From Streptomyces coryli (GTDB lineage Bacteria; Actinomycetota; Actinomycetes; Streptomycetales; Streptomycetaceae), in assembly GCF_011044975.1 (NCBI RefSeq), contig NZ_JAAKZV010000040.1:1-45153 (forward strand): DNA of 45,153 bases, in the 5' to 3' direction. Under the pieces are notes generated by a model. The model was not told the origin of the DNA, did no database searches, and saw only the letters and a list, made by a program, of their open reading frames with translations. Positions 18,112 to 38,269 of this stretch are shown here, piece by piece. Numbering within the stretch: the stretch's first letter is position 1; every line of letters starts with the position of its first letter. A program made the position numbers and the translations under genes.

Positions 18112-18969
18112 TCAGCCCTGGGCAGCAGCCCGCGCTTCGCGGCGATTGTCGCGGAAGGCGTTCACCCGCCGCGCCGTCGCGAAGAGCGGGATGACCGCGG
18201 CCATCACGATCTGCAGCGAGCAGCCGGTCTGCAGCAGCAGCTGTGCGCCGGGCGCGTCGAGCGCCCAGGACGCCAGGCAGCCCATGCTGATCGCCGCCCA
18301 GATGAGGGTGGCGAGCGCCAGCCGGCCGCGCGGCTTCGGGTACTCGACGCGGCTCACCATCAGCCACGCCACGCCCACGATCGCCAGCAGCGTCGGGATG
18401 AACGGCAGCTCGAGCAGCACCACGGAGATGACCGTCAGCGCCCCGAAGGGCGACGGCAGCCCCTGGAAGCCCCCGCCGGGGACCTCCGTGCACGAGAACC
18501 GCGCAAGCCGGAGCACCACCGCCAGCAGGACGACCACCGCGGCGACCGCGGAGATCCGCTCGTGCGCGCCCTCGGTGACCATGCCGTAGACCAGCACGAA
18601 GTACGCCGGCGCCAGGCCGAAGCTGATCAGGTCGGAGAGGTTGTCCAGCTCCGCGCCCATGGCCGAGGAGCGCAGCTTGCGCGCGACCAGGCCGTCGAAG
18701 AGGTCGAAGACCGAGGCCAGCAGCATGAGCATCACAGCGGTAGCGGCGCTGTGCCTGGCCATGCCGCCGTCGCCCTCGCCGGTGATGTGCGGCATCAGGA
18801 CGCCGGTCGTCGTGAAGTAGACCGCCAGGAAGCCGCAGGTGGCGTTCGCGAGGGTCAGGGTGTCCGCGATGGACAGCCGCGTCGACAGCGGCATGTCGTC
18901 ATCGTCGTCCGCGGCGGGCTCGGGGACCCACTGCGCGTCGGCTGAGGTACTGGGATCAGTCACGGTCAA
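18112..18969 (-). CDS. pssA: CDP-diacylglycerol--serine O-phosphatidyltransferase
   Basis: A 285-residue integral membrane enzyme that makes phosphatidylserine from CDP-diacylglycerol and serine. The CDP-alcohol phosphotransferase motif is complete: Asp89, Asp92-Gly93, Ala96-Arg97, Gly105, Asp109 and Asp113, with seven residues between Arg97 and Gly105. Several hydrophobic helices surround it. The N-terminal 30 residues are acidic (five Asp in a row), which is common in actinobacterial members. The ATG at 18969 lies inside the 3' end of psd (14-base overlap), so both steps of phosphatidylethanolamine synthesis are made from one transcript, closed by the terminator at 18053-18091. Confidence 0.94.
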   Translation of the reverse strand: MTVTDPSTSADAQWVPEPAADDDDDMPLSTRLSIADTLTLANATCGFLAVYFTTTGVLMPHITGEGDGGMARHSAATAVMLMLLASVFDLFDGLVARKLRSSAMGAELDNLSDLISFGLAPAYFVLVYGMVTEGAHERISAVAAVVVLLAVVLRLARFSCTEVPGGGFQGLPSPFGALTVISVVLLELPFIPTLLAIVGVAWLMVSRVEYPKPRGRLALATLIWAAISMGCLASWALDAPGAQLLLQTGCSLQIVMAAVIPLFATARRVNAFRDNRREARAAAQG

Positions 18970-19615
18970 GGCGTGTCACCCCCGCGGTAGTGGCCTGGCC
19001 GACCTCGACGGCCGGCTCGACGCCCTCCGGGAGGTAGACGTCGACACGCGAGCCGAACCGGATGAGTCCGATCCGCTCGCCCTGCTCGACCTTCGCCCCG
19101 GCGTCCACGTACGGCACGATGCGGCGCGCCACGGCGCCGGCGATCTGGATCATCTCCACATCGCCGATCTCCGTGTCGAAGTGCCACACGACGCGCTCGT
19201 TGTTCTCGGACTCCTTGTTGAACGCCGGTACGTAGCCGCCGGGGATGTGCTCGACGGAGGCCACCGAGCCCGCGAGTGGGGCGCGGTTGACGTGGACATT
19301 GAGGGGGCTCATGAAGATCGCGACGCGGGTGCGCCCGTCCTTCCACGGCATGATGCTCTGCACCACGCCGTCAGCCGGGGAGATCACGCGGCCGGTGGCG
19401 ATCTCTCGCTCCGGGTCGCGGAAGAACCACAGCATGCCCGCCGCGAGAGCGGTGGAGGGCACGGCTGCGGCCGCCCACTTACCCGAGCGGCGGGAGCGGG
19501 CGAGGCTGACGGCTGCGGTGGCCAAGGTCGGCAGGAGCCACGGCGAAGCGCCGCGCGCCAGGCTCACCTTCCGAGGTGCCTGGCTGCGCGGTGCTGAGGG
19601 GTTGCTGTGGGGCAT
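18956..19615 (-). CDS. psd: Phosphatidylserine decarboxylase proenzyme (short, archaeal-type)
   Basis: About 219 residues. It decarboxylates phosphatidylserine to phosphatidylethanolamine. The self-cleavage site is seen as IRFGSRVDVYLP, where the Gly-Ser bond is cut and the serine becomes the pyruvoyl group. His in SPLNVHVNRAPL and the segment WFFRDPER are further family marks. The short length and the single N-terminal hydrophobic stretch fit the compact class. The ATG at 19615 has GAAGG at a good distance. A TTG at 19651 is in frame but lacks support. The 3' end overlaps pssA. Confidence 0.93.
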   Translation of the reverse strand: MPHSNPSAPRSQAPRKVSLARGASPWLLPTLATAAVSLARSRRSGKWAAAAVPSTALAAGMLWFFRDPEREIATGRVISPADGVVQSIMPWKDGRTRVAIFMSPLNVHVNRAPLAGSVASVEHIPGGYVPAFNKESENNERVVWHFDTEIGDVEMIQIAGAVARRIVPYVDAGAKVEQGERIGLIRFGSRVDVYLPEGVEPAVEVGQATTAGVTRLDRD

Positions 19616-19674
19616 GAATGACCTTCGTAGCGGAGGATGCCGCGTAGACAAGGGGGACGGCGGCTTCCCGGGAT

Positions 19675-20991: not shown

Positions 20992-21498
20992 TCAGCGCTC
21001 CTGAAGTTCCGGGCGGCCGGGCTGCTCGCCGCCGCGCTCCTTGATGTAGGTGGCCGTCGGGACCATCACCTTGCGCTTGAACACGCAGACGAGGGTGCCG
21101 TCCTGCTTGTAGCCCTTGGTCTCGACGTGGACGATCCCGCGGTCGTCCTTCGACTTGGACGGCCACTTGTCCAGGACCGTCGTCTCGCCGTAGATGGTGT
21201 CGCCGTGGAAGGTCGGCGCCACGTGCTTCAGCGACTCGATCTCCAGGTTGGCGATCGCCTTCCCGGACACGTCCGGGACGGACATGCCCAGCAGCAGCGA
21301 GTAGATGTAGTTGCCCACGACGACGTTCTTGCCGAAGTCGGTCGTCCGCTCCGCGTAGTTCGAGTCCATGTGGAGCGGGTGGTGGTTCATGGTGAGAAGG
21401 CAGAAGAGGTGGTCGTCGTACTCGGTGACCGTCTTGCCGGGCCAGTGCTTGTAGACCGCGCCGACCTCGAACTCCTCATAGGTGCGTCCGAACTGCAT
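20992..21498 (-). CDS. mch: MaoC-family hydratase, probable mesaconyl-CoA hydratase
   Basis: A 168-residue single hot-dog-fold protein. The R-hydratase-like region EYDDHLFCLLTMNHHPLHMDSNYAERTTDFGKNVVVGNYI contains the catalytic-type Asp and His residues (shown in outline), and FHGDTIYGETTVLDK is a second family segment. In the pathway it adds water to mesaconyl-CoA to give beta-methylmalyl-CoA. The enzymes first described in proteobacteria are about twice as long with two hot-dog domains, so this one would act as a dimer. It starts five bases after the mcl stop with GGAGG in the end of mcl. Confidence 0.85.
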   Translation of the reverse strand: MQFGRTYEEFEVGAVYKHWPGKTVTEYDDHLFCLLTMNHHPLHMDSNYAERTTDFGKNVVVGNYIYSLLLGMSVPDVSGKAIANLEIESLKHVAPTFHGDTIYGETTVLDKWPSKSKDDRGIVHVETKGYKQDGTLVCVFKRKVMVPTATYIKERGGEQPGRPELQER

Positions 21499-21503
21499 CT
21501 CGC

Positions 21504-22469
21504 TCAGGCCTCCGGCGGGGTGAAGGTGGTCGTACGGTGCATGCCGGCCGCGCGGCCCTTGCCGGAGATGACCAGCGCCATCTTGCGGCTGGCCTCGTCG
21601 ATCATCTCGTCGCCGAGCATCGCCGAGCCCTTCTTGCCGCCCGCCTCTGACGTGTAGTACTCGTACGCGTCCAGGATCAGCTCGGCGTGGTCGTAGTCCT
21701 CCTGGGAGGGCGAGAAGACCTCGTTCGCCGCCGTCACCTGGCCCGGGTGCAGCACCCACTTGCCGTCGAAGCCGAGCGCGGCCGCGCGGCCCGCGACGGT
21801 GCGGAAGCCGTCGACGTTCTTGATCTGCAGGTACGGGCCGTCGATCGCCTGGAGGTCGTTGGCGCGGGCGGCCATCAGGATCTTCATGAGGATGTAGTGG
21901 TACGCGTCCGCGTCGTAGCCCGGCGGCTGCTCGCCGACGACCAGGGACTTCATGTTGATGGAGGCCATGAAGTCGGCCGGGCCGAAGATGATGGTCTCCA
22001 GCCGGGGGGAGGCCTCGGCGATGGCGTTCACGTTGTTCAGGCCGCGGGCGTTCTCGATCTGCGCCTCGATGCCGATGCGGCCGACCTCGAAGCCCATGGT
22101 CTTCTCGATCTGGGTGAGGAGCAGGTCGAGCGCCACCACCTGCTGGGCGTCCTGCACCTTCGGCAGCATGATGCAGTCGAGGTTGGGGCCCGCACCCTCG
22201 ACGACCGTCACCACGTCGCGGTAGGTCCACTCGGTGGTCCAGTCGTTGACCCGCACGACGCGCGTCTTGCCGGTCCAGTCACCCTCGTTCAGGAACTTCA
22301 CGATGGTGTGCCGGGCGTCCGGCTTCGCCAGCGGCGCGCAGGCGTCCTCCAGGTCCAGGAAGACCTGGTCGGCCTCGAGCCCCTGCGCCTTCTCCAGGAA
22401 GCGCGGGTTGGAGCCCGGTACGGCCAGGCAGGAACGCCGGGGGCGCAGGCGGTTGACGGGGGCGGTCAT
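21504..22469 (-). CDS. mcl: CitE-like lyase, probable L-malyl-CoA/beta-methylmalyl-CoA lyase
   Basis: A 321-residue TIM-barrel lyase that should split beta-methylmalyl-CoA into glyoxylate and propionyl-CoA, and possibly malyl-CoA into glyoxylate and acetyl-CoA. The family is marked by RSCLAVPGSNPRFLEKAQG, VFLDLEDACAP, the metal-binding Glu in GIEAQIENARG and Asp in IFGPADFMASI, and WVLHPGQV near the end. The ATG at 22469 overlaps the stop of ecm by four bases (ATGA), so translation is coupled. Assignment of substrate relies on the complete pathway set around it. Confidence 0.88.
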   Translation of the reverse strand: MTAPVNRLRPRRSCLAVPGSNPRFLEKAQGLEADQVFLDLEDACAPLAKPDARHTIVKFLNEGDWTGKTRVVRVNDWTTEWTYRDVVTVVEGAGPNLDCIMLPKVQDAQQVVALDLLLTQIEKTMGFEVGRIGIEAQIENARGLNNVNAIAEASPRLETIIFGPADFMASINMKSLVVGEQPPGYDADAYHYILMKILMAARANDLQAIDGPYLQIKNVDGFRTVAGRAAALGFDGKWVLHPGQVTAANEVFSPSQEDYDHAELILDAYEYYTSEAGGKKGSAMLGDEMIDEASRKMALVISGKGRAAGMHRTTTFTPPEA

Positions 22470-24487
22470 GCGGGGACCTCCAGGGGGTCGAGCTTTCCAG
22501 CGGTGCGAATCTCATCGACGATACGGCCGATGATCTCCGTAAGGTCGAAGTCCTTGGGTGTGAAGACGGCGGCCACTCCGGCGGCCCTGAGCGCCTCGGC
22601 GTCGGCGGCCGGGATGATGCCGCCGGCGATGACCGGGACGTCGTCGACGCCCGCGGCGTGCAGCCGCTCCAGCACGTCCGGGACGAGCGCGGCATGCGAG
22701 CCGGAGAGGATCGACAGGCCGACGCAGTGCACATCCTCGGCGATGGCGGCGTTCACGATCTGCTCGGGCGTGAGCCTGATGCCCTGGTAGACCACCTCGA
22801 AGCCGCAGTCGCGGGCGCGGACGGCGATCTGCTCGGCGCCGTTGCTGTGCCCGTCGAGGCCGGGCTTGCCGACCAGGAGGCGGAGCTTCCCCACGCCCAG
22901 GTCGGCGGCGGTGCGGTCGACCTTGTCCCGGACACGGGACAGCGGGGAGCCCGCCTCGCCCGCCACGGCGAGCGGGGCGGAGCTGACGCCCGTAGGAGCG
23001 CGGAACTCGCCGAAGACGTCCCGCAGCGCCCACGCCCACTCGCCGGTGGTGACGCCGGCGCGGGCGCATTCGAGGGTGCGCTCCATCAGGTTCTCGTCGC
23101 CCGCGGCGCCCGCCTTGAGGGCGGAGATGGCCTTCTGGGCGTGCTCGTCGTCGCGGTGCAGGCGCCAGTCGTGCATGGCGCCGACGACCCGGGCCTCGTT
23201 CTCCGGGTCCACCGTCATGATGGCCGTGTCGAGGTCGGCGGTGAGCGGGCTGGGCTCGGACTCGGTGTAGCTGTTGACCCCGATGATCTTCTCCTCGCCC
23301 GCCTCGATACGGGCCCGGCGCTCGGCGTGCGAGGAGACCAGCTGCGACTTGAGGTACCCGGACTCGACGGCGGCGAGGGCGCCGCCCAGGTCCTGGATGT
23401 GCTCGATCTCGGCGAGCGCCGCCTCGGTCAGCTCGGCGGTCTTCGCCTCGACGACCTTCGAGCCCTCGAAGAGGTCCTCGTACTCCAGCAGGTCGCTCTC
23501 CTGGGCGAGGACCTGCTGGATCCGCAGCGACCACTGCTGGTCCCAGGGCCGGGGGAGGCCCAGGGCCTCGTTCCAGGCGGGGAGCTGGACGGCGCGGGCG
23601 CGGGCGTCCTTGGAGAGGGTGACGGCCAGCATCTCCAGGACGATCCGCTGGACGTTGTTCTCCGGCTGCGCCTCGGTCAGGCCGAGGGAGTTGACCTGGA
23701 CGCCGTAACGGAAGCGCCGATGCTTGGCGCTCTCGATCCCGTAGCGCTCCCGGGTGATCTTGTCCCAGATGCGGTTGAAGGCCCGCATCTTGCACATCTC
23801 CTCGACGAACCGGACGCCGGCATTGACGAAGAAGGAGATCCGCGCGACCACGTCGCCCATCTTGTCCTGCGGCACCTGTCCGCTGTCCCGGACGGCGTCC
23901 AGGACGGCGATCGCGGTGGACATGGCGTAGGCGATCTCCTGGACGGGAGTCGCCCCGGCCTCCTGCAGGTGGTAGCTGCAGATGTTGATCGGGTTCCACT
24001 TGGGGATGTGCGCGACGGTGTACGCGATCATGTCCGTCGTCAGCCGGAGGGAGGGGCCCGGCGGGAAGACGTACGTCCCCCGCGACAGGTACTCCTTCAC
24101 GATGTCGTTCTGGGTTGTCCCGGACAGCTTGGTGATGTCCGCGCCCTGCTCCTCGGCGACCACCTGATAGAGCGCCAGCAGCCACATCGCGGTGGCGTTG
24201 ATGGTCATCGAGGTGTTCATCTGGTCGAGCGGGATGCCGTCCAGCAGCTTGCGCATGTCGCCCAGGTGCGAGACCGGGACCCCGACCCGGCCGACCTCGC
24301 CGCGGGCGAGGATGTGGTCGGGGTCGTAACCGGTCTGCGTCGGCAGGTCGAAGGCGACCGACAGGCCGGTCTGGCCCTTGGCGAGGTTGCGCCGGTAGAG
24401 GGCGTTGGACGCCTCGGCGGTGGAGTGCCCCGCGTAGGTCCGCATCAGCCAGGGCCGGTCCTTGGGGGGCCGTTCTGCCGGTGCCAT
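22466..24487 (-). CDS. ecm: Ethylmalonyl-CoA mutase (MeaA-like, B12-dependent)
   Basis: A 673-residue single-chain acyl-CoA mutase. The N-terminal barrel has RTYAGHSTAEASNALYR and GLSVAFDLPTQTGYDPDH, and the C-terminal cobalamin domain has DGHSNG at residues 545-550 (His547 would be the cobalt ligand), then LSILSGSH and VIAGGIIP, the DxHxxG...SxL...GG set. In this operon it converts ethylmalonyl-CoA to methylsuccinyl-CoA. The closely related methylmalonyl-CoA and isobutyryl-CoA mutases are usually split or differently arranged, and the neighbours ccr and mcl support ethylmalonyl-CoA. Its ATG shares one base with the ccr stop (TGATG). Confidence 0.93.
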   Translation of the reverse strand: MAPAERPPKDRPWLMRTYAGHSTAEASNALYRRNLAKGQTGLSVAFDLPTQTGYDPDHILARGEVGRVGVPVSHLGDMRKLLDGIPLDQMNTSMTINATAMWLLALYQVVAEEQGADITKLSGTTQNDIVKEYLSRGTYVFPPGPSLRLTTDMIAYTVAHIPKWNPINICSYHLQEAGATPVQEIAYAMSTAIAVLDAVRDSGQVPQDKMGDVVARISFFVNAGVRFVEEMCKMRAFNRIWDKITRERYGIESAKHRRFRYGVQVNSLGLTEAQPENNVQRIVLEMLAVTLSKDARARAVQLPAWNEALGLPRPWDQQWSLRIQQVLAQESDLLEYEDLFEGSKVVEAKTAELTEAALAEIEHIQDLGGALAAVESGYLKSQLVSSHAERRARIEAGEEKIIGVNSYTESEPSPLTADLDTAIMTVDPENEARVVGAMHDWRLHRDDEHAQKAISALKAGAAGDENLMERTLECARAGVTTGEWAWALRDVFGEFRAPTGVSSAPLAVAGEAGSPLSRVRDKVDRTAADLGVGKLRLLVGKPGLDGHSNGAEQIAVRARDCGFEVVYQGIRLTPEQIVNAAIAEDVHCVGLSILSGSHAALVPDVLERLHAAGVDDVPVIAGGIIPAADAEALRAAGVAAVFTPKDFDLTEIIGRIVDEIRTAGKLDPLEVPA

Positions 24488-25824
24488 CAGATGTTCCGGA
24501 AGCGGTTGATGGCGTCGAGGTGCGTGGCGCGCTTCTCCTCGTCGCGCACGCCCAGGCCCTCCTCGGGGGAGAGGCAGAGCACGCCGACCTTGCCCTGGTG
24601 GAGGTTCTTGTGCACGTCGTACGCGGCCTGGCCGGTGTCCTCCATCGAGTACGTCCGGGACAGCGTCGGGTGGATCTTGCCCTTGGCGATGAGGCGGTTG
24701 GCCTCCCAGGCCTCGCGGTAGTTGGCGAAGTGGGAGCCGATGATGCGCTTCAGGGACATCCACAGGTAGCGGTTGTCGTACTGGTGCATGTAACCGGAGG
24801 TCGAGGCGCAGGTGGTGATGGTGCCGCCCTTGCGGGTGACGTACACGGAGGCGCCGAAGGTCTCGCGTCCCGGGTGCTCGAAGACGATGTCGATGTCCTC
24901 GCCGCCGGTCAGCTCGCGGATGCGCTTGCCGAAGCGCTTCCACTCCTTCGGGTCCTGGGTGTTCTCGTCCTTCCAGAACTTGTAGTCCTCGGCGTTGCGG
25001 TCGATGATCGCGTCGGCGCCCATGGCGCGGCAGATGTCGGCCTTCTGCCGGCTGGAGACCACGCAGATCGGGTTGGCACCGCCGGCGAGCGCGAACTGGG
25101 TCGCGTACGAGCCGAGTCCGCCGCTCGCGCCCCAGATCAGGACGTTGTCGCCCTGCTTCATGCCGGCGCCGTTACGGGACACCAGCTGCCGGTACGCGGT
25201 GGAGTTGACCAGGCCCGGGGCCGCGGCCTCCTCCCAGGAGAGGTGGTCGGGCTTGGGCATCAGCTGGTTGGACTTCACCAGGGCGATCTCGGCGAGGCCG
25301 CCGAAGTTGGTCTCGAAGCCCCAGATGCGCTGCTCCGGGTCGAGCATCGTGTCGTTGTGGCCGTCGGCCGATTCGAGCTCGACGGACAGGCAGTGCGCGA
25401 CGACCTCGTCGCCGGGCTTCCAGGCGTTGACGCCGGGGCCGGTCTGCAGCACCACGCCCGCGAGGTCGGAGCCGATGACGTGGTACGGCAGGTCGTGGCG
25501 CTTGGTGAGCTCGCTGACGCGGCCGTAGCGCTCGAGGAAGCCGAAGGTGGAGAGCGGCTCGAAGATGCTCGTCCACACGGAGTTGTAGTTGACCGAGCTG
25601 GCCATGACGGCCACCAGGGCCTCGCCAGGGCCGAGTTCCGGGGTGGCGACGTCCTCGACGTGGAGCGACTTGCGGGGGTCCTTGTCCTTGGTGGACAGGC
25701 CCTCGAACATGTCGGTCTCGTCCTTGTGGACCGTCACCGCCCGGTAGTGGTCCGGGATGGTCAGCGCCGCGAAGTCGGCGGGGGTGGTGTCGGCGGCCAT
25801 GATGGCGTCGCGGATCTCGTTCAC
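24487..25824 (-). CDS. ccr: Crotonyl-CoA carboxylase/reductase
   Basis: A 445-residue NADPH-dependent enzyme of the medium-chain reductase family that reduces and carboxylates crotonyl-CoA to ethylmalonyl-CoA, the entry to the pathway. The Rossmann motif is VLIWGASGGLGSYATQFA (near residue 228). Counting from the GTG at 25824, Asn81, Phe170, Glu171 and His365 are all present. These are the CO2-binding residues described for the Kitasatospora setae enzyme, and the numbering matches exactly. This supports true carboxylation rather than plain reduction. GGAGG lies seven bases before the GTG. It heads the five-gene operon, and a promoter with a palindrome lies about 210 bases upstream. It also supplies ethylmalonyl-CoA for polyketide extender use in some streptomycetes. 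Confidence 0.96.
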   Translation of the reverse strand: MNEIRDAIMAADTTPADFAALTIPDHYRAVTVHKDETDMFEGLSTKDKDPRKSLHVEDVATPELGPGEALVAVMASSVNYNSVWTSIFEPLSTFGFLERYGRVSELTKRHDLPYHVIGSDLAGVVLQTGPGVNAWKPGDEVVAHCLSVELESADGHNDTMLDPEQRIWGFETNFGGLAEIALVKSNQLMPKPDHLSWEEAAAPGLVNSTAYRQLVSRNGAGMKQGDNVLIWGASGGLGSYATQFALAGGANPICVVSSRQKADICRAMGADAIIDRNAEDYKFWKDENTQDPKEWKRFGKRIRELTGGEDIDIVFEHPGRETFGASVYVTRKGGTITTCASTSGYMHQYDNRYLWMSLKRIIGSHFANYREAWEANRLIAKGKIHPTLSRTYSMEDTGQAAYDVHKNLHQGKVGVLCLSPEEGLGVRDEEKRATHLDAINRFRNI

Positions 25825-30892: not shown

Positions 30893-31522
30893 ATGGACGA
30901 CGAGTTCACAGCGCTGACACGCCGGGTGCAAGCCGAATTGCACGGACATGCCGCATGGGCCGCCTATGAACGCGTCGTCTCCCTGGCGCGGGCGGCGGCC
31001 GTCAACTCCACCGCCCGCGACACCCTCGCCGGATATCTGGACGCGCCCGCGCAGCCGCTGTGGGCGCGCGAGGTGGCGGCGTACGCGCTGGGCGCGGCCG
31101 GCGACCGGCGCGCCTTCGAAACGCTCGTGCTGCTGCTCAACTACCGCGATCCGGCCCGCGGCGCGACCGCCGCCGACGCTCTCGCCAAACTCGGCGACCC
31201 GCGCACCGCCCGCGCCGCGGCCGCGCTCGCCACCAACCCGCTGCGCACCTCCTACGCGCGGCACGCCGTCCTGCTGCTCGGCCGGCTCCGGGCACCGGAG
31301 TCGGTGCCGGCGCTGATCAGCACCCTGGAGCGGCTGGTCCGCGGGCCCGACCACCACTGGCCGGTGGCGAACGCCTGCATCGCCGGGCTCGGCGCGGCGG
31401 CGGACGAGCGGGCGATCCCGGTGCTCACCTCGGCTCGGGTCTTCCCGGAGCTGCGGGACACGGCGGCGGAGGCGCTCGCCCGGATCTGGCGGCAGGCGCC
31501 GCCGTCGAGCTCCAGCGCCTGA
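30893..31522 (+). CDS. HEAT-repeat protein
   Basis: A 209-residue, probably all-helical cytoplasmic protein. Repeats of about 30 residues with the A-x-x-A-L-G-x-x-G-D pattern are visible, such as AREVAAYALGAAGDRRAFETLVLLL, ATAADALAKLGDPRTARAA, YARHAVLLLGRLRAPESVPALISTL and NACIAGLGAAADERAIPVL. Such repeats form a scaffold for protein-protein contact. Some bacterial members assist phycobilin or other enzymes, but nothing here indicates that. GGGGG before the ATG is a usable RBS. It ends at a hairpin terminator. The function is unknown. Confidence 0.8.
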   Translation: MDDEFTALTRRVQAELHGHAAWAAYERVVSLARAAAVNSTARDTLAGYLDAPAQPLWAREVAAYALGAAGDRRAFETLVLLLNYRDPARGATAADALAKLGDPRTARAAAALATNPLRTSYARHAVLLLGRLRAPESVPALISTLERLVRGPDHHWPVANACIAGLGAAADERAIPVLTSARVFPELRDTAAEALARIWRQAPPSSSSA

Positions 31523-31548: not shown

Positions 31549-32466
31549 TCACCGTCCGGCGTGCCGGCGCAGCAGCTCCCGGGCGGTGGCGGCCATCGCC
31601 TCGTCGACCATCTCGCCCTCGAAGGCCACGGCGCCGGCGCCGCGGGCCCGCGCCTGCTCGACGGCGGCGATCAGGCGGGCGGCGCGGTCGAGTTCCTCCC
31701 GGGCGGGGGTGAACACCTCGTTGATCACGGGGACATGGCTCGGGTGGATCGCCATCATCCCGGCGTAGCCGAGCGAACGGTTCTGCGCCGCGAAGGTGCG
31801 CAGCCCGTCGAGGTCGCCGACGCGGGTCCACAGCCCCGCGACCGGGTGCGGAGCGCCGGCGGCCCGCACGTCCAGCAGCGCGCGGGCGCGGAGGTGGTAC
31901 GTCTCCGTGCCCTCCGGGCTCCAGCGATAGCCGATGGCGCGCTCGACGTCACCGCCGGCGCCGGTGACCGCGCCCGCGTACGCGACCCGGGGCGCGGCCG
32001 CCGCGCAGTCGCGGGCGGCGTGCAGGGCGGTGGCCGTCTCCAGCAGCGGGAGCAGGGCGAAGTGGCCGTACGGCAGGCCGTGTTCGCGTTCCGACCAGGT
32101 GAGCAGGCGGTCGGCCAGGCGGATGTCGTCAGGGCCGGTGACCTTCGGCAGCACGATGCCGGTGAGGCCGGGACGGGCGAGGGCGCGCAGCTCCTCGGCG
32201 GCTGCCCAGCGGTCGAGCGGGTTGATCCGTACGAAGAGCGCCGGGCCGCCGTCCGCGTCGTCGACGGCCGCGGCCACCTGGTCGCGGGCAGCCGCCTTGC
32301 CGTCCTCGGGGACCGCGTCCTCCAGGTCGAGGATGACCGCGTCCGCCCCGCAGGCGCGCGCCTTCGGCAGCAGGTCCGTACGGCTGCCGGGGACGAAAAG
32401 CAGGGACCGGAGAAGGGCGCGGGCGGCCGGCCCAGATGACGTCCGGGCGGCCGGCTCAGATGACAT
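31549..32466 (-). CDS. CitE-like CoA-ester lyase (HpcH/HpaI family)
   Basis: A 305-residue TIM-barrel lyase. It has RSLLFVPGSRTDLLPKARACGADAVILDLEDAVPEDGK at the start (in outline), the Glu in LPLLETATAL, and the variant metal segment GAVTGAGGDVERAIGYRWSPEGTE instead of the more usual FGAEDLA type. This GGD variant marks a distinct subgroup from the mcl of the same window. Lyases of the family split acyl-CoAs such as malyl-, citramalyl- or methylmalyl-CoA. The ATG overlaps the end of the CoA-transferase gene by 11 bases, so activation and cleavage are translated together. The substrate is not known. Confidence 0.85.
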   Translation of the reverse strand: MSSEPAARTSSGPAARALLRSLLFVPGSRTDLLPKARACGADAVILDLEDAVPEDGKAAARDQVAAAVDDADGGPALFVRINPLDRWAAAEELRALARPGLTGIVLPKVTGPDDIRLADRLLTWSEREHGLPYGHFALLPLLETATALHAARDCAAAAPRVAYAGAVTGAGGDVERAIGYRWSPEGTETYHLRARALLDVRAAGAPHPVAGLWTRVGDLDGLRTFAAQNRSLGYAGMMAIHPSHVPVINEVFTPAREELDRAARLIAAVEQARARGAGAVAFEGEMVDEAMAATARELLRRHAGR

Positions 32467-33676
32467 CGCGCTCCTCCAGCTCCGCCAGCTCGCCCTCGCC
32501 GAGGCCCAGCCACTCGCGGTAGACGAGGTCGTTGTCCTGGCCGAGGGCCGGACCGGTGCGCCACACCTTCCCTGGCTGCTGCCGGAAGTGCGGGAGGACC
32601 GCCTGCATCCGTACGGGCCCCAGGTCGGCGTCGGCCACCGTGACGATGTCCGCGCGCTCGGCGTAGACGGGGTCGGCGGCGATGTCGGCGGCGCTGAACA
32701 CCCGCGAGGCCACCACCTCCGCTGCCGCGAAGGCCGCCAGGCACGCGTCCGCGGTGCGCTCCGCGACCCAGGCGCGCAGGCCGTCGTCGAGGCGGCCGCG
32801 GGCGGCGTACTGCTGCTCGGAGGTGGCGAATTCGGTCTCGTCCCAGCCGAGGAGGCGGGCGACGTTACGCACCGAGCGCACCGTCGCGGAGGTGACGGTG
32901 ATCCACTCGCCGTCGCCGGAACGGTAGGTGTTGATCACGGCGGCGGGCGCCACGGCGAGCTGGTTGCCGGAGCGTTCCGGGACGCTGCCCAGCTGGTCGT
33001 GCACGATGACCTGCCATTCGATGAGCCGGTACAGCGGCTCGAAGAGCGCGAGATCGATCCATTCGCCCTCAAAGCCGGGGTCCGTCTCGCGGCGGTGCAG
33101 CGCGGCGAGCACGGCGTACGCGCCCATCAGGCCGGTGACCGCGTCGCCGTGCGAGAAGCCGGTGTGCACGGGCGGTCCTTCGGCGAAGCCGGTCAGGTGC
33201 ACGACCCCGCTGCGCGCCTCGCCGACCTTGCCGAAGCCGGGCTCGTCGGCGCGGGTGGAGGTGGCCCCGTAACCGGATATCTGCAGCAGCACCGCCCTGG
33301 GGTTGAGGCGGTGCACCGCCTCCCAGTCCAGGCCCCAGGCGCGCAGCCGGCCGGCGCGCAGGGTGACGATGACGACGTCGGCCCAGGCGACGAGGCGGTG
33401 GGCGAGGGCGCGGCCCGAGGCGTGGTGCAGGTCGAGGGTGACGGAGCGCTTGTTGCGGCCCGCGACCTTGAACCACAGCGGGTGGCCGTCTTTTACGGGA
33501 CCCATCGCGCGGGCCGCGTCGCCGGTGCCCGGCGGCTCCACGTGGACGACGTCGGCGCCCTGGTCGGCGAGCATGGAGCCGGCCAGCGGCCCGGCCACCA
33601 CATGCGCGAATTCCACCACCTTCAGCCCGCTCAACTGCCCCTGCCCGCCGCCCTGCCCACGCTCGTCCGCCACCAT
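32456..33676 (-). CDS. Class III (CaiB/BaiF) CoA-transferase
   Basis: A 406-residue enzyme that moves CoA between carboxylic acids. The N-terminal LKVVEFAHVVAGPLAGSMLADQGADVVHVEPPG is the family beginning, Asp178 in HTGFSHGDAVTG is the expected anhydride-forming nucleophile (equivalent to Asp169 in formyl-CoA transferase), and EGEWIDLALFE follows. Members activate oxalate, carnitine, malate, mesaconate, itaconate and citramalate. It is co-transcribed with the CitE-like lyase, and a LysR-type box lies about 84 bases upstream of its start, so it belongs to a regulated pair for CoA activation and cleavage. Confidence 0.88.
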   Translation of the reverse strand: MVADERGQGGGQGQLSGLKVVEFAHVVAGPLAGSMLADQGADVVHVEPPGTGDAARAMGPVKDGHPLWFKVAGRNKRSVTLDLHHASGRALAHRLVAWADVVIVTLRAGRLRAWGLDWEAVHRLNPRAVLLQISGYGATSTRADEPGFGKVGEARSGVVHLTGFAEGPPVHTGFSHGDAVTGLMGAYAVLAALHRRETDPGFEGEWIDLALFEPLYRLIEWQVIVHDQLGSVPERSGNQLAVAPAAVINTYRSGDGEWITVTSATVRSVRNVARLLGWDETEFATSEQQYAARGRLDDGLRAWVAERTADACLAAFAAAEVVASRVFSAADIAADPVYAERADIVTVADADLGPVRMQAVLPHFRQQPGKVWRTGPALGQDNDLVYREWLGLGEGELAELEERDVI

Positions 33677-33758
33677 CGCGCTCCCTGTGCTCGCTTCCAG
33701 CGGCTTTCAGGGTGACCAGGCCGGGGAATGCCCGTCCAGCAAGAAATCTCCATGAATC

Positions 33759-33775
33759 CATGCGACTTGCGCATG
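33759..33775. promoter_or_regulatory. LysR-type box upstream of CoA-transferase/lyase operon
   Basis: ATGCG (33760-33764) and CGCAT (33770-33774) flank ACTTG, giving a T-N11-A core inside a slightly longer inverted repeat. It lies 83 bases before the CoA-transferase start. The same sequence with another spacer occurs at 34773-34787. The neighbouring lysR gene makes the assignment likely. Confidence 0.65.
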
Positions 33776-33796
33776 AATCGAGGGCGGGCCGGGCTG

Positions 33797-34726
33797 CTAC
33801 GCCCAGGTCACCCCCGGCGGCAGCGGGCGCTCTTCGGCGCGGAACGCCTGCAAGGTGTCGAGGAAGTGCTGCGCCGTGAGCGGCAGCGGGCGGCGGGCCC
33901 GTAGCGCGATGTCCAGGCGGCGGTCGACGACCGGGCCGGTGAGCGGCCGGTGCACCAGGGCGCCGGCGCCCAGCAGCGGCAGGACGAGCGCGGGCAGGGC
34001 GGTGACGCCGAGTCCGGCCGCCACCAGGCCGCCGACCGTGGCCACGCTGCCCGCCTCGGCGGCCGGCGCGGTCCGCGCGTCGACCTGCGCGAACGCCGCG
34101 TCCACCAGGCGCCGTACGCTCGACTCCCGGCCGACCGCCAGGAACGGCTCGCGGGCCAGCTCCTCCCAGCCGACCGCCTCCTGCTCGCCCCGCTCCGCCA
34201 GCGGATGCCCCTCGGGCAGCACCGCCACGAACCGGTCGCGGACCAGCGGGCGGTGCTCCAGCTGACCCGACGGCTCGCCGGTGGTGATCGCGAAGTCGGC
34301 GTCGCCCGCCAGCACCCGGCCCAGCACCGACTGCTCCAGGCCGTCCATGATCTGCACCGCCACCCGCGGCCGCCGTTCGCGGAAGCCGGAGATCACCCCG
34401 GGCAGCAGCACCGCCGCGACCGACGGCAGCGTGGCTACGGCGACGGTGCCGGACTCGCCGAGCAGGAAGCGCTGCAGCTCCTTCATGCCGGACCGGTGCG
34501 CGTTCACGATCTGCTCGGCTATCCGCAGCGCCTCGACGCCCGCGGCGGTCAGCTGGACGTTACGGGTGTCCCGTTCCAGCAGCTGGGCGCCGACCTGCCG
34601 CTCCAGGTCGGCGACCGCGCGGCTGAGCGAGGACTGGGAGACGTGCAGTTGCGCGGCGGCCGCGGTGAAGCTGGCGGCCCGGGCGACGGCGGCGTACGCG
34701 CTCAGCTGGCGGAGGGTGGTGTCCAT
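33797..34726 (-). CDS. LysR family transcriptional regulator
   Basis: A 309-residue LTTR. The N-terminal winged helix is LRQLSAYAAVARAASFTAAAAQLHVSQSSLSRAVADLERQVGAQLLERDTRNVQLTAAG (in outline), and the rest is the inducer-binding domain with RPRVAVQIMDGLEQ, LVAAGLGVTALPALV and similar segments. Start is the ATG at 34726. It is divergent from the CitMHS transporter and lies directly upstream of the CoA-transferase/lyase pair. Identical boxes at 33759 and 34773 suggest it controls both and itself. The inducer is unknown, presumably the carboxylate or its CoA ester. Confidence 0.92.
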   Translation of the reverse strand: MDTTLRQLSAYAAVARAASFTAAAAQLHVSQSSLSRAVADLERQVGAQLLERDTRNVQLTAAGVEALRIAEQIVNAHRSGMKELQRFLLGESGTVAVATLPSVAAVLLPGVISGFRERRPRVAVQIMDGLEQSVLGRVLAGDADFAITTGEPSGQLEHRPLVRDRFVAVLPEGHPLAERGEQEAVGWEELAREPFLAVGRESSVRRLVDAAFAQVDARTAPAAEAGSVATVGGLVAAGLGVTALPALVLPLLGAGALVHRPLTGPVVDRRLDIALRARRPLPLTAQHFLDTLQAFRAEERPLPPGVTWA

Positions 34727-34772
34727 GGCCGGTGAGCGTAGGTCGCTATCGCCGCGCCGGACAGCCGGATTG

Positions 34773-34787
34773 ATGCGGACAACGCAT
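34773..34787. promoter_or_regulatory. LysR-type box between lysR and the transporter gene
   Basis: ATGCG (34773-34777), spacer GACAA and CGCAT (34783-34787) form the same inverted repeat as at 33760-33774. Both sites are followed by GAA, so ATGCG-N5-CGCATGAA is shared. It lies 47 bases from the lysR start and 58 bases from the preferred transporter start. Confidence 0.65.
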
Positions 34788-34845
34788 GAACACATCTCGG
34801 TTTGATGCTGGACGCCGATCTGTCGCCGCTTCGACACTCATCCGC

Positions 34846-36207
34846 ATGCCGGCGACTCTCGGATTCCTCACCATCGGCCTGTTCCTGTTGCTCACCATGA
34901 CGAAGCGGGTCTCCGTCCTGGTGGCGCTCGTGCTGCTCCCGGTCCTCGCCGCCCTCGTCGGCGGCCACGCCGGCGACCTCGGCGACATGGTGCTCACCGG
35001 CCTCACCACGGTGGCGCCGACCGGCATCATGATCGCCTTCGCGGTGCTGTACTTCTCGCTCATGGTCGATGCGGGCCTCTTCGACCCGCTGATCCGCGTG
35101 CTGCTGAAGTTCGCGCGCAACGACCCGGCGCGGGTCGCGGTCGCCACGGCGGTGCTGACGATGTGCGTGGCCCTGGACGGCGACGGAGCATCGACATTCC
35201 TCATTACGGTCTCCGCGCTGCTGCCGGTCTACCGGCGGCTGCGGATGAGCCCACTGGTGCTGTCAGGCGTGGTCTGCCTGGGCGCGGGCGTGATGAACAT
35301 GGTCCCGTGGGGCGGGCCGACGGTCCGGGCGATGGCGGCGCTGAAGCTGGAGAGCTCGGAGGTCTTCACGCCGGTGCTGCCCGCGATGGGGGTCGGGATC
35401 CTCTGGGTGCTGCTGGCGGCGTATTGGATCGGGCGGCGGGAGCGACGCCGGCTGGCGGGGGAGAGCGGGGAGAGCGAGTCGAGCGAGGAGAGCAAGGCGA
35501 GCGCCGAGCCCGCCGGCCCGCAGGTCGCCCCGCTGCCGGGCGACGGCCCCGGCACCCCGCTGCTGCCCGCCGCCGAGACGCGGCCGCCTGCCTGGCTGAT
35601 GGTCTTCAACGCTGCGCTCACCGTGGTGCTGCTCGTCGCCCTCGTCATGGAAGTGATGCCGCTGCCGGTGCTGTTCGCGCTCGCCTTCGCGGTGGCGCTG
35701 CTGGTCAACCACCCGACCTGGGAGCAGCAGCAGGCGCTGCTGGAGAAGCACGCCAGGAGCGTGGTGCTGGTCACCACCATGATCTTCGCGGCGGGGGTGT
35801 TCACCGGCGTGCTCACCGAGACGAAGATGATCACCGAGATGGCGCAGGCGCTGGTGGACGTGGTCCCCGACTCCTTCGGTGGCCATCTGCCGCCGCTGGT
35901 GGCCATCGCCGGGATGCCGCTCAGCCTTGCTTTCACGCCGGACGCGTTCTACTTCGGGGTGCTGCCGGTGCTCGCCGAGACGGCGGCCGGCTTCGGCACC
36001 GGGCAGGAGGAGATCGCCCGGGCCGCGATCCTCGGCCAGATGACCACGGGCTTCCCGCTCAGCCCGCTCACCGCCTCCACCTTCATCCTGCTCGGGATGA
36101 GCGGCGTCCAGCTCGGTGAGCACCAACGGTTCATCTTCCGCTGGGCGTTCGGCACCACGCTCGTGATGACGGCGGCGGCGCTGGCCACCGGCGCGATATC
36201 GCTCTGA
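34846..36207 (+). CDS. CitMHS-type citrate/carboxylate transporter
   Basis: A 453-residue polytopic transporter of the CitMHS family, which in Bacillus moves metal-citrate complexes and in others moves di- or tricarboxylates with protons. The start MPATLGFLTIGLFLLLTMTKRVSVLVAL matches the family N-terminus, so ATG 34846 is preferred over the ATG at 34786, which lies within the LysR box. The conserved GDGASTFLITVSALLPVYRRLRM and VMNMVPWGGPTVRA segments are present, as is TPDAFYFGVLPVL near the end. A long hydrophilic Ser/Glu/Pro-rich loop (about 205-250) splits the protein. It is divergent from lysR, and the next gene follows after 30 bases. Confidence 0.88.
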   Translation: MPATLGFLTIGLFLLLTMTKRVSVLVALVLLPVLAALVGGHAGDLGDMVLTGLTTVAPTGIMIAFAVLYFSLMVDAGLFDPLIRVLLKFARNDPARVAVATAVLTMCVALDGDGASTFLITVSALLPVYRRLRMSPLVLSGVVCLGAGVMNMVPWGGPTVRAMAALKLESSEVFTPVLPAMGVGILWVLLAAYWIGRRERRRLAGESGESESSEESKASAEPAGPQVAPLPGDGPGTPLLPAAETRPPAWLMVFNAALTVVLLVALVMEVMPLPVLFALAFAVALLVNHPTWEQQQALLEKHARSVVLVTTMIFAAGVFTGVLTETKMITEMAQALVDVVPDSFGGHLPPLVAIAGMPLSLAFTPDAFYFGVLPVLAETAAGFGTGQEEIARAAILGQMTTGFPLSPLTASTFILLGMSGVQLGEHQRFIFRWAFGTTLVMTAAALATGAISL

Positions 36208-36237
36208 GGGCACGACCAACGAAGGGAACGCCTGCGC

Positions 36238-37848
36238 ATGCCCGAGCCCGAGTCCGTACCCGACCGTCACCCGCAACCGGCGCTCTCCCGCCGGACTCTC
36301 TGCGCCCTGGGCGCGGCCGCCGGCATCGGCGCGGCCCTGGCACCCGCGACCGCCGCCCGCGCGTCGGCCGGGCAGATCGCCGGTGAGCCGACCGGAGGGC
36401 CGCCCGACCCGTTCTTCGCCTACGACCGCCCCGCCGCCTACGGCGTCGTCCGCGAGGACGTCAAGGTCCCGCTGCGCGACGGCAGTCACCTCGCGGCCCA
36501 GCTCTACCGCCCCGCCGACGCCACCGGCCGGCCCGCGGCGGGGACCTTCCCCGGCATCGTGTACGAGTACACCGCGTACGCCCCCTCGCTGGAGCAATTC
36601 GGCACCGACGCCGCCTATTTCGTCCGCCGCGGCTACCTCGCGCTGGTCTGCCAGGTGCGCGGCGCGGGCGCCTCGCCGGGCACCGTCGACCCCTTCGGCC
36701 CGCAGGAGCAGCGCGACAACCACGACGCCATCGAATGGCTCGCCCGGCACGCCGCCTGCGCCGGCCGCATCGGGCAGATGGGCGTCAGCTACGGCGGCCA
36801 CACCACGGTCCTCGCCGCGGCCAACCGCCCCCCGTCGCTGAAGGCGATCATCCCGGTCAACGCCATCTCCGACTGGTACGAGAACACCATCTACCGCGGC
36901 GGCATCTACTCCGCCCGGATCCGCGACTGGCAGCGCCAGTGGGCCCCCGGCACCCTCACCAGCTACGCCGAGCACCCGCTCCACGACGACTTCTGGCGCG
37001 ACCGCAGCGTGAAGACCCGCTGGGACGCGCTCACCATCCCCATGCTGGGCATCAACGGCTGGTACGACCGCTACCGCGACGGCATGGTGCAGAACTACCT
37101 GGCCCGCCCCGACCACGTCTGGCTGGTCTCCGGCCCCTGGGAACACGGCTCACCGCAGGGCCAGTACGCCGGCATCGGCCCCGGCGGCTACCTCGCCTGG
37201 TGGGACCGCTGGCTGGCCGCGGACGCGCGGGCGCCCCTGCCCGCCGCGCACATCACCTCGTACGAGGTGCCGGGTCCCGGCGCGGGCGCGGGCTGGCAGC
37301 AGTTCGGCCAGTGGCCGCCGCCCGACGCCCGCCGCCGCACCCTCAGCCTGCGCGCCGACGGCTCGCTCCACACCGGCTCCGGCCGCCCGGCCACCACCGG
37401 CTTCGACGTCAACACCGGCACGGGAGCCCCCGGACCGCACCAGCAACTGACCTTCTCCACCCCGCCGTTGCGCCACGCCACGGTGCTCGCCGGCGACGCC
37501 ACGGCCCGTATCCGCGCGGCCTTCACCGCCACCGACGGCAATATCGCGACGATCCTCTACGACCGGGCGCCCGACGGCAGCACCACCTGGATCACGGCCG
37601 GCTGGCTGAAGGCGAGCCACCGCCGCGGCCACACGGCACTCACCCCCGTTACCCCCGGCCGCGATCACGACCTCGACGTGCACCTGTGGCCGACGCACTA
37701 CCGCCTCGCCGCCGGCCACCGGCTCGTGCTCCGGGTCTCCGCCGACGACTATCCGGAGATCGACTCGGACGCGCCGCCGGGTCGCGTGCGGCTACGGCTC
37801 GGGGCGGGTGGCTGCGCGCTGGACCTCATGGTCCGTACGCCGGGGTGA
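36238..37848 (+). CDS. Tat-exported CocE/NonD-family hydrolase
   Basis: A 536-residue alpha/beta hydrolase with a twin-arginine signal (SRRTLCALGAAAGIGAALAP, Arg18-Arg19). The catalytic triad can be read as Ser184 (MGVSYGGHT), Asp277 (INGWYDRY) and His303 (GPWEHGSP). The C-terminal jelly-roll of X-prolyl dipeptidyl-peptidase/cocaine-esterase-like enzymes follows, ending VLRVSADDYPEI. Substrates of the family are esters or amides and cannot be predicted. The gene starts 30 bases after the transporter stop with AAGGGAA upstream, so it is probably in the same operon. It may release a carboxylate outside the cell for the transporter, which is inference. Confidence 0.88.
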   Translation: MPEPESVPDRHPQPALSRRTLCALGAAAGIGAALAPATAARASAGQIAGEPTGGPPDPFFAYDRPAAYGVVREDVKVPLRDGSHLAAQLYRPADATGRPAAGTFPGIVYEYTAYAPSLEQFGTDAAYFVRRGYLALVCQVRGAGASPGTVDPFGPQEQRDNHDAIEWLARHAACAGRIGQMGVSYGGHTTVLAAANRPPSLKAIIPVNAISDWYENTIYRGGIYSARIRDWQRQWAPGTLTSYAEHPLHDDFWRDRSVKTRWDALTIPMLGINGWYDRYRDGMVQNYLARPDHVWLVSGPWEHGSPQGQYAGIGPGGYLAWWDRWLAADARAPLPAAHITSYEVPGPGAGAGWQQFGQWPPPDARRRTLSLRADGSLHTGSGRPATTGFDVNTGTGAPGPHQQLTFSTPPLRHATVLAGDATARIRAAFTATDGNIATILYDRAPDGSTTWITAGWLKASHRRGHTALTPVTPGRDHDLDVHLWPTHYRLAAGHRLVLRVSADDYPEIDSDAPPGRVRLRLGAGGCALDLMVRTPG

Positions 37849-37879: not shown

Positions 37880-38269
37880 ATGGCCGTTGATTTGAATCAC
37901 ACCATCGTCGCCGCGCGGGACAAGAAGGAGTCGGCGGAATTCGTCGCCGGCATCCTGGGCCTCGAGGTCGGGCCGCAGTACGGCCCGTTCCTGCCCGTCG
38001 TCACCGCCAATGGCGTCGCCCTGGACTTCATGGACGCCGACCCGTACCACCCCATCAATGAGCAGCACTACGCCTTCATCGTCACGGAGGCCGAGTTCGA
38101 CGAGATCTTCGGGCGCATCAAGGAGGCCGGGATCGAATACTGGGCGGACCCCGGCCACCGGCAGCCCGGCGAGATCAACCATAACGACGGCGGCCGCGGC
38201 GTCTACTTCCCGGACCCCAGCGGCCACAACCTGGAGATCATCACCCGGCCTTACGGCAGCGGGAGCTGA
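37880..38269 (+). CDS. VOC family (glyoxalase-like) protein
   Basis: A 129-residue vicinal-oxygen-chelate protein. The N-terminal LNHTIVAARDKKESAEFVAGILGLEVG and the C-terminal RGVYFPDPSGHNLEIITRP are family hallmarks; His7 and Glu in NLEI are the usual metal ligands. The reaction is unknown; VOC members include dioxygenases, isomerases, glyoxalases and resistance proteins. It is 31 bases after the hydrolase. Its TGA is directly followed by the convergent radical SAM stop, so there is no intergenic space. Confidence 0.85.
   Translation: MAVDLNHTIVAARDKKESAEFVAGILGLEVGPQYGPFLPVVTANGVALDFMDADPYHPINEQHYAFIVTEAEFDEIFGRIKEAGIEYWADPGHRQPGEINHNDGGRGVYFPDPSGHNLEIITRPYGSGS

Follow-up and report, generated by a model that had tools for sequence, protein, structure and literature searches.

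The subject of this analysis is a stretch of 45,153 nucleotides (nt) from Streptomyces coryli (NCBI RefSeq assembly GCF_011044975.1, contig NZ_JAAKZV010000040.1, positions 1 to 45,153 of the forward strand), hereafter called the window, and within it a module of five genes at positions 31,549 to 37,848. The module encodes a CoA-ester lyase, a CoA-transferase, a LysR-type regulator (LTTR), a transporter and an exported hydrolase, and two copies of one palindrome lie in its intergenic regions. Its features are the following:

31549..32466, minus strand: CitE-like CoA-ester lyase (HpcH/HpaI; PF03328, 113.7 bits, cut-off 25)
32456..33676, minus strand: class III (CaiB/Frc-type) CoA-transferase (PF02515, 343.5 bits, cut-off 23.3)
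33734..33742, minus strand: conserved half-element TTGCTGGAC, 32 nt from the start of LysR box 2 (alignment of promoters)
33760..33774: LysR box 2, ATGCG-N5-CGCAT, between lysR and the transferase gene (window scan and conservation)
33797..34723, minus strand: LysR-type regulator (PF03466 and PF00126, above the Pfam cut-offs)
34773..34787: LysR box 1, ATGCG-N5-CGCAT, between lysR and citM (window scan and conservation)
34805..34813, plus strand: conserved half-element ATGCTGGAC, 32 nt from the start of LysR box 1 (alignment of promoters)
34846..36207, plus strand: citM, CitMHS family transporter, in a frame open from 34786, with 34846 as the probable start (PF03600 and TIGR00784)
36238..37848, plus strand: Tat-type CocE/S15 ester hydrolase, occupant of a variable slot (PF02129, PF08530 and TIGR00976)

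All five genes are open frames at these positions, and each scores above its Pfam family cut-off. The lyase and transferase genes overlap by 11 nt, which bears out the overlapping operon described in the first-pass annotation, made earlier from the sequence alone; the profile scores likewise confirm the LysR gene, the CitMHS transporter and the ester-type hydrolase that it had named, the export of the latter by the twin-arginine (Tat) route being indicated by the N-terminus SRRTLCALGAAAG, judged by eye. CitM reaches 110.7 bits with PF03600 (cut-off 31.9) and 466.6 bits with TIGR00784 (curated cut-off 259.7), which places it in the CitMHS family of citrate:proton symporters, and has no match among solved structures. 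Its first ATG (34786) overlaps the end of LysR box 1, while both its conservation and its match to TIGR00784 begin at residue 21, so that translation probably starts at 34846. A second CitMHS protein, found in four of six module-bearing genomes searched, is also above the TIGR00784 cut-off and thus of the same subfamily, but shares only 42-45% identity with the carrier of the window. The hydrolase belongs to the CocE/NonD family (TIGR00976, 203.1 bits, cut-off 66.3), and its stretches GVSYGG, GWYD and WEHG, which align with cocaine esterase, presumably hold the catalytic triad. Its start lies 30 nt downstream of citM, and read-through from the citM promoter is therefore possible.

The conservation of this arrangement was surveyed by a scan with the transferase, one genome per species, which gave 62 loci, mostly in Streptomyces, with three in Streptosporangiaceae (L032, L040 and L044) and a small number more distant. 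Of the 62, 53 contain CitM, and 51 of the 53 agree in the order and orientation of CitM, LysR, transferase and lyase, the two exceptions being L056, without a LysR match, and L047, where the contig ends before the lyase. Moreover, draws of Streptomyces genomes were made irrespective of the module (392 genomes for the lyase and PF10605 searches, 353 for those with EstA and CocE). The lyase (E <= 1e-80) was found in 31 of 392, together with the transferase in all 31 and with LysR and CitM in 30 each; this count misses genome G008, whose module appears on L045. The rows L076-L106 overlap the genomes of L001-L062 (G002 is L005 and G019 is L007, for example), and the two sets are not additive. Among 396 genomes drawn from the whole phylum the lyase was found (E <= 1e-60) in two, of which one is the genome on which the draw was centred and the second, G696, holds a 44% relative without other queried genes nearby.

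On the transferase tree, from which four short rows were dropped, the window protein stands among Streptomyces, in a fork with S. oryzae (support 86/78) within a wider clade (100/96). Further afield, relatives of the transferase (77%) and of the lyase (63%) are neighbours on a plasmid of Rhodococcus koreensis, which also holds a CitM at a distance of about 5 kb. The transferase relatives in L048, L049, L052-L054, L059 and L060 have different neighbours, and in Mycolicibacterium rufum and Sphingomonas the plasmid-borne relatives are part of ring-dioxygenase clusters. CitM, LysR, transferase and lyase thus form a conserved core. The set of five genes previously singled out stands as far as its genes are concerned, and the survey recasts it as a more widespread core of four plus a variable hydrolase slot. 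Searches of the open full-text PMC literature listed no paper that, by its title or the beginning of its abstract, deals with these genes as a set.

The core also shares a promoter element. ATGCG-N5-CGCAT is a palindrome of the T-N11-A type, and boxes 1 and 2 are its only perfect copies in the window. The number of boxes was rejected as evidence by itself: at up to one mismatch the window holds three palindromes, a number reached by 39 of 100 shuffles and hence not above chance, and the evidence for the box is therefore its conservation. For this purpose 94 rows were considered (the 62 loci, 31 further rows and the window), and the 82 that have all three neighbouring genes were scored. In 82 of 82 rows a box with at most two mismatches is present in both intergenic regions, with at most one mismatch in 79 and 77 rows, respectively, and perfect in 47 and 47; these rows include genomes present twice, the distinct intergenic sequences numbering 69 and 70. 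Mononucleotide shuffles of the CitM-LysR region, the only one used for this control, gave a box at up to one mismatch in 17 of 1640 cases and at up to two in 147 of 1640. A conserved T-N11-A palindrome at the promoters, as expected of a divergent operon governed by an LTTR, is thus found, and the shared LysR boxes noticed at first inspection hold, both as a perfect pair in the window and across relatives.

The place downstream of CitM on the same strand is variable. In 37 of the 53 CitM loci it holds a hydrolase of one of three mutually exclusive types, never two: CocE in 7, homologues of PF10605 (3-hydroxybutyrate-oligomer hydrolase, 3HBOH) in 10 and EstA-like proteins in 20, 19 of the last with a PETase-like gene alongside (the counts were taken from tblastn, since gene calling missed some genes). 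The reference PF10605 protein, that of L033, scores 646.8 bits, the PETase-like representative in L012 has an F5/8 domain, and export signals were seen by eye in the hydrolase representatives read. The converse searches point in the same direction. A strong PF10605 match (E <= 1e-50) occurs in 7 of 392 Streptomyces genomes and lies beside citM in 7 of 7 (three of these genomes were already among the known loci, and two have a fragmented gene), CocE orthologues (E <= 1e-90) occur in 2 of 353 genomes, both at the module, and EstA orthologues occur in 20 of 353, of which 18 are among the 31 lyase genomes. The remaining two are G008, with its module on L045, and G137, in which a more distant CitM and a LysR stand beside EstA.

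In addition to the copies at the module, EstA genes are found elsewhere in some genomes, and most of these have kept the box. The EstA search gave 21 places, namely nine beside an intact CitM, ten unlinked, and those of G019 and G137, which were set apart. Within 400 nt upstream of the ten unlinked genes the palindrome is perfect in nine cases and has one mismatch in the tenth, and only 0-3 of 200 shuffles per locus equalled what was observed. Over the same distance, the best box before the nine CitM-linked genes has three mismatches, as expected inside an operon. Seven further unlinked EstA genes, reached through PETase matches and noticed partly because of the box, have a perfect box in five cases, one mismatch in one and none in one (G020, where the contig begins just before the gene). 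Counting G026, which was reached by both routes, only once and leaving G019 and G137 aside, 14 of 17 unlinked EstA genes have a perfect box, two a box with one mismatch and one none. The palindrome is mostly still perfect though the EstA proteins have diverged to about 68-86% identity. Of 14 PETase-like places inspected, nine are beside EstA (G001, G024, G025, G026, G027, G019, G020, G007 and G009) and five are not (G028, G029, G033, G011 and G008).

The second element, ATGCTGGAC, stands 32 nt past the box start in both promoters of the window and in most promoters of unlinked EstA genes. Deviations were seen in G289 (one mismatch in the last eight bases), the 69% EstA copy in G008 (two mismatches), G007 (one mismatch and a one-base shift), G128 (a one-base shift) and G137 (without the element). 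At 50 loci that take in the other perfect boxes of 15 genomes, the combination of box and ATGCTGGAC at 0-1 mismatch was found in none, and the three loci with ATGCTGGAC at two mismatches are read as chance. Those of the 50 that recur from genome to genome are either within open frames or flanked by another LysR and a dehydrogenase-like gene. In two CocE-type genomes (L151:9606-11690 and L160:3055-5189) the palindrome stands between a different LysR and a gene which, by eye, is zinc-alcohol-dehydrogenase-like.

Genome G019 offers a view on the origin of the unlinked genes. On L182:2604-3462, fragments of CitM separate a perfect LysR box from an EstA-PETase pair, and the intact module of the same genome carries CocE; this suggests that such loci are the remains of former modules, a relic of module turnover. 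Exported ester cleavage, uptake, CoA activation and carbon-carbon cleavage very probably form one regulon. The swapping of hydrolases and the shared box together support the release of the acid from an ester outside the cell more strongly than the first-pass annotation, which had raised it, could know, and the conserved core and its common regulation support its view of uptake, CoA activation and cleavage as one unit.

Several observations weigh against so tight a connection between hydrolases and core. Sixteen of the 53 CitM loci lack any sampled hydrolase type; two of these are cut by contig ends. For some of the 16 an unlinked boxed EstA exists, and for others, among them G028, G029 and G033, neither EstA nor box was present where a PETase-like gene was inspected. 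PETase-like proteins are common in these genomes regardless of the module, and two lone PETase-like genes (G011 and G008, 85% identical) have no box at up to one mismatch. The hydrolase types are, furthermore, largely clade-bound, with three changes on the tree for three groups, and loci within one type are accordingly not independent. As for the regulator, blastp with the window LysR matched none of the frames close to the box at the first four unlinked loci inspected (L122-L125), and the LysR genes near the unlinked EstA of G087, two in number and at least 1.7 kb away, are unrelated (29-31%). The promoters of unlinked EstA genes appear to derive from the citM promoter, and retention of the box may partly reflect ancestry, since the CitM fragments of G019 suggest former modules and part of the promoter likeness is then descent. 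That the hydrolases are unrelated neighbours, and that the core by itself imports and cleaves a free acid, is nevertheless improbable: the loci without a linked hydrolase and the lone PETase-like genes are what such an account would explain, and it is opposed by the location at the module of the gene in all seven Streptomyces genomes with strong 3HBOH matches and in both CocE genomes, as well as by the perfect box before 14 of 17 unlinked EstA genes.

The enzymes of the core retain the residues expected for their chemistry. The transferase is of class III according to its PF02515 score and to Asp177, which aligns with an Asp of formyl-CoA transferase 10uh, is Asp in 77 of 79 rows (the other two are gaps) and is presumably the catalytic residue. 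In the lyase, E48, D49, R79, E142, D172 and D287 are each the same residue in 70-71 of the 71 rows of the family, the single exception being due to a gap, and correspond to the catalytic residues of the CitE-like superfamily set out in an excerpt of PMC3832036; the Glu/Asp pair, the Arg, the Mg2+-binding Glu and Asp and the lid Asp are all conserved. Strong orthology of either enzyme to one of an unrelated pathway, which had been named beforehand as a sign against the proposal, was looked for, and no equivalog cut-off was reached by either. The transferase scores 177.6 and 171.7 bits with the succinate-glutarate and succinyl-CoA:mesaconate CoA-transferase models (cut-offs 750 and 700), and the lyase 165 bits with CitE (TIGR01588, cut-off 443.4) and 129.1 bits with RipC (cut-off 375). 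That the two are simply orthologues of Ict/Ccl, CitE, MCL or SUGCT-type enzymes was rejected, as no NCBIfam equivalog cut-off was attained, and, to the detriment of any assignment of substrate, the acid is not readable from orthology.

Two features of the lyase bear on the nature of this acid. Malyl-CoA lyases are described in the excerpt of PMC3832036 as having a specific insertion after the sixth strand. The module lyase lacks it: its length is 304 residues as against 333 and 339, and in alignments to 5ugr and 4l9y the extra residues are only in those chains. In the malyl-CoA lyases aligned, the stretch GKWAIHP contains a Trp, probably the one meant in the same excerpt, which is replaced in the module family by Met, Ala, Leu, Val, Thr or Ile, with Met in 51 of 71 rows. 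Furthermore, no hydratase is present among the five genes of the window according to Pfam, and, core and hydrolases aside, every gene cluster is confined to 7 or fewer of the 62 loci (with the reservation that gene calling missed some genes). As no hydratase recurs with the core, the acid probably arrives already hydroxylated, one of the two options originally considered.

The best account of these data, and a likely one, is that the module belongs to a LysR-controlled regulon for scavenging a di- or tricarboxylic acid that carries a hydroxyl group and is held outside the cell in an ester or polyester. An exported hydrolase (CocE in the window, a 3HBOH homologue or the EstA-like/PETase-like pair in relatives) would free the acid, which the CitMHS carrier would import; the class III transferase would then load CoA onto it, probably from succinyl-CoA, and the CitE-like lyase would cleave the resulting beta-hydroxyacyl-CoA between the alpha and beta carbons to acetyl-CoA and an oxo acid. 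LysR, presumably as an activator, would bind ATGCG-N5-CGCAT before citM, before the transferase-lyase pair and before the unlinked hydrolase genes. The acid would most likely be of the citrate type (citrate, citramalate or 3-hydroxy-3-methylglutarate), which is favoured over malate from polymalate because the carrier scores as a citrate symporter and the lyase has neither the insertion nor the Trp of malyl-CoA lyases. Against citrate itself stands the fact that it needs no CoA route.

The main rival concerns the donor, which could be beta-poly(L-malate): L-malate would be freed and imported, and malyl-CoA cleaved to glyoxylate and acetyl-CoA. It owes this rank to the 3HBOH enzymes, which cut chains of beta-hydroxy acids, beta-polymalate having just such a 3-hydroxy-acid ester backbone with a side carboxylate. 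The F5/8 domain of the PETase-like protein in L012 also suggests a polymer. Malate, however, needs no CoA route, and the lyase, as already described, lacks the insertion and, at the position in question, the Trp of malyl-CoA lyases. Passages of PMC9210645 attest that polymalate-degrading bacteria exist, but also report the characterised polymalate hydrolases as being without serine-esterase activity, and the polymalate account is on balance rather unlikely. Use of 3-hydroxybutyrate from polyhydroxybutyrate, which the PF10605 homologue at 10 of 62 loci might suggest, is extremely unlikely, since the carrier is a strong CitMHS member and 3-hydroxybutyryl-CoA is without the carboxylate that, according to part of PMC6689899, binds Mg2+ in Rv2498c.

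A further proposal of the first-pass annotation, that mesaconate or a similar acid is re-assimilated with the hydratase (mch) of the adjacent ethylmalonyl-CoA operon, has to be set against the neighbourhood of the module. Genes of the ethylmalonyl-CoA type are truly nearby in the window:

24487-25824: CCR, above cut-off
20992-24943: mutase, CitE-like protein and MaoC-type hydratase-like protein, the last two below equivalog cut-offs

Seven flanking genes were used as queries, namely CCR, 3-hydroxyacyl-CoA dehydrogenase, TetR, HEAT, VOC, and a radical-SAM-like and a PadR-like gene (these two named by eye), mch itself not being among them. None was found at any of the 62 related loci, 58 of which extend far enough to take in the position of the dehydrogenase and 49 that of CCR. 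The further 31 rows are also without ethylmalonyl-CoA genes but end about 1.5 kb beyond the lyase and hence provide no test. The link to the operon was rejected on these grounds, and neither hydration by mch nor re-assimilation of mesaconate through it finds support. Besides, the operon has its own CitE-like protein, 30% identical to that of the module, and the mesaconate route is highly improbable. Taken as a whole, the earlier interpretation is partly supported: its outline is right, its link to the ethylmalonyl-CoA operon lacks support, and it gives the hydrolase too small a role.

Other neighbours were noted in passing. Overlapping genes for phosphatidylserine synthase (pssA) and phosphatidylserine decarboxylase (18112-19651) stand beside the ethylmalonyl-CoA genes. 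The HEAT-repeat protein (30893-31522) reaches 217.8 bits (cut-off 310) with NF006501, a model called 'adenylosuccinate lyase', which looks a misleading name for a protein of this kind. A small glyoxalase-fold protein (37880-38269) follows CocE; its best score with fosfomycin-enzyme models is 38.5 bits, far below the cut-off of 180, and therefore gives no evidence of resistance.

Among known systems, the itaconate degradation cluster (Ict-Ich-Ccl or RipABC, a three-step pathway according to part of PMC12290011) resembles the module in combining a CoA-transferase with a carbon-carbon lyase, for a C5 acid. The module differs in that no hydratase was found recurring with the core, in that the lyase misses the RipC cut-off, and in the addition of a carrier and exported hydrolases. 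In comparison with citrate lyase (CitDEF), the lyase is CitE-like with a score below the cut-off of TIGR01588, and no acyl-carrier or CitF-type gene is found by Pfam among the five; a free CoA ester would be expected. Rv2498c of Mycobacterium tuberculosis, which cleaves (S)-citramalyl-CoA and (R)-HMG-CoA (3-hydroxy-3-methylglutaryl-CoA) according to part of PMC6689899, has the superfamily in common with the module lyase, but matches it with only 69 bits, versus 127 for 1sgj, 100 for CLYBL and 112-115 for malyl-CoA lyases. The module thus extends the known catabolism of acids by CoA-transferase and CitE-like lyase with an unusual, interchangeable exported front end.

A different type of cluster is connected with it through Streptomyces G137 (L222:6466-12215), where EstA with its own perfect box, LysR, CitM (45%), AtuA and AtuA_ferredoxin form one run, the last two in place of the transferase and lyase, which makes this locus a bridge to clusters of Proteobacteria. 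A plasmid search with the Streptomyces 3HBOH gave four records; in three of them (two Microvirga and Pseudomonas luteola; L233, L234 and L235) the gene lies in a cluster of LysR, AtuA, a small protein and a carrier, annotated as a tricarboxylate binding protein or a citrate symporter, and the fourth, from Paraburkholderia phymatum (unannotated), matched the 3HBOH queries only. Among these clusters, that of VF16 also has a tannase/feruloyl esterase gene. The AtuA of P. luteola matches 70 plasmid records; in ten more examined among the matches listed, a citrate:proton symporter is next to AtuA in five, a LysR is annotated in seven and a 3HBOH is annotated within 5 kb in none, so that there the hydrolase, at least 3HBOH, is the exception. 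These LysR-CitMHS-AtuA clusters are like the module in having LysR, a citrate-type carrier and a pair of cytosolic proteins, in some cases with 3HBOH, and unlike it in having AtuA and its small partner instead of the transferase and lyase. On a plasmid of Salipiger abyssi (L246:1-6625), genes for a CoA-transferase, a MaoC dehydratase, a CoA ester lyase and a TRAP carrier form one run with AtuA, which may therefore also act alongside such enzymes instead of taking their place.

It is possible, if somewhat doubtful, that all these loci belong to one class of systems, spread across phyla, for scavenging citrate-type hydroxy acids from esters, in which exported hydrolases of several unrelated families (CocE, 3HBOH, EstA/PETase-like and possibly tannase-type) would be combined with a citrate-type carrier and LysR, and with either transferase and CitE-like lyase or AtuA and its small partner. 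Many annotated 3HBOH proteins would then not act on 3-hydroxybutyrate, and AtuA would act on tertiary hydroxy acids.

The finding ties exported polyester-type hydrolases, partly through a shared DNA element, to one route of uptake and cleavage, and their natural substrate thereby becomes testable from the cytosolic enzymes. The annotations as 3HBOH in Streptomyces and some Proteobacteria may mislead, and the module offers a context for AtuA. Should soil bacteria indeed use an ester or polyester of such an acid that occurs in nature, this would be of interest for both polymer turnover and enzyme discovery.

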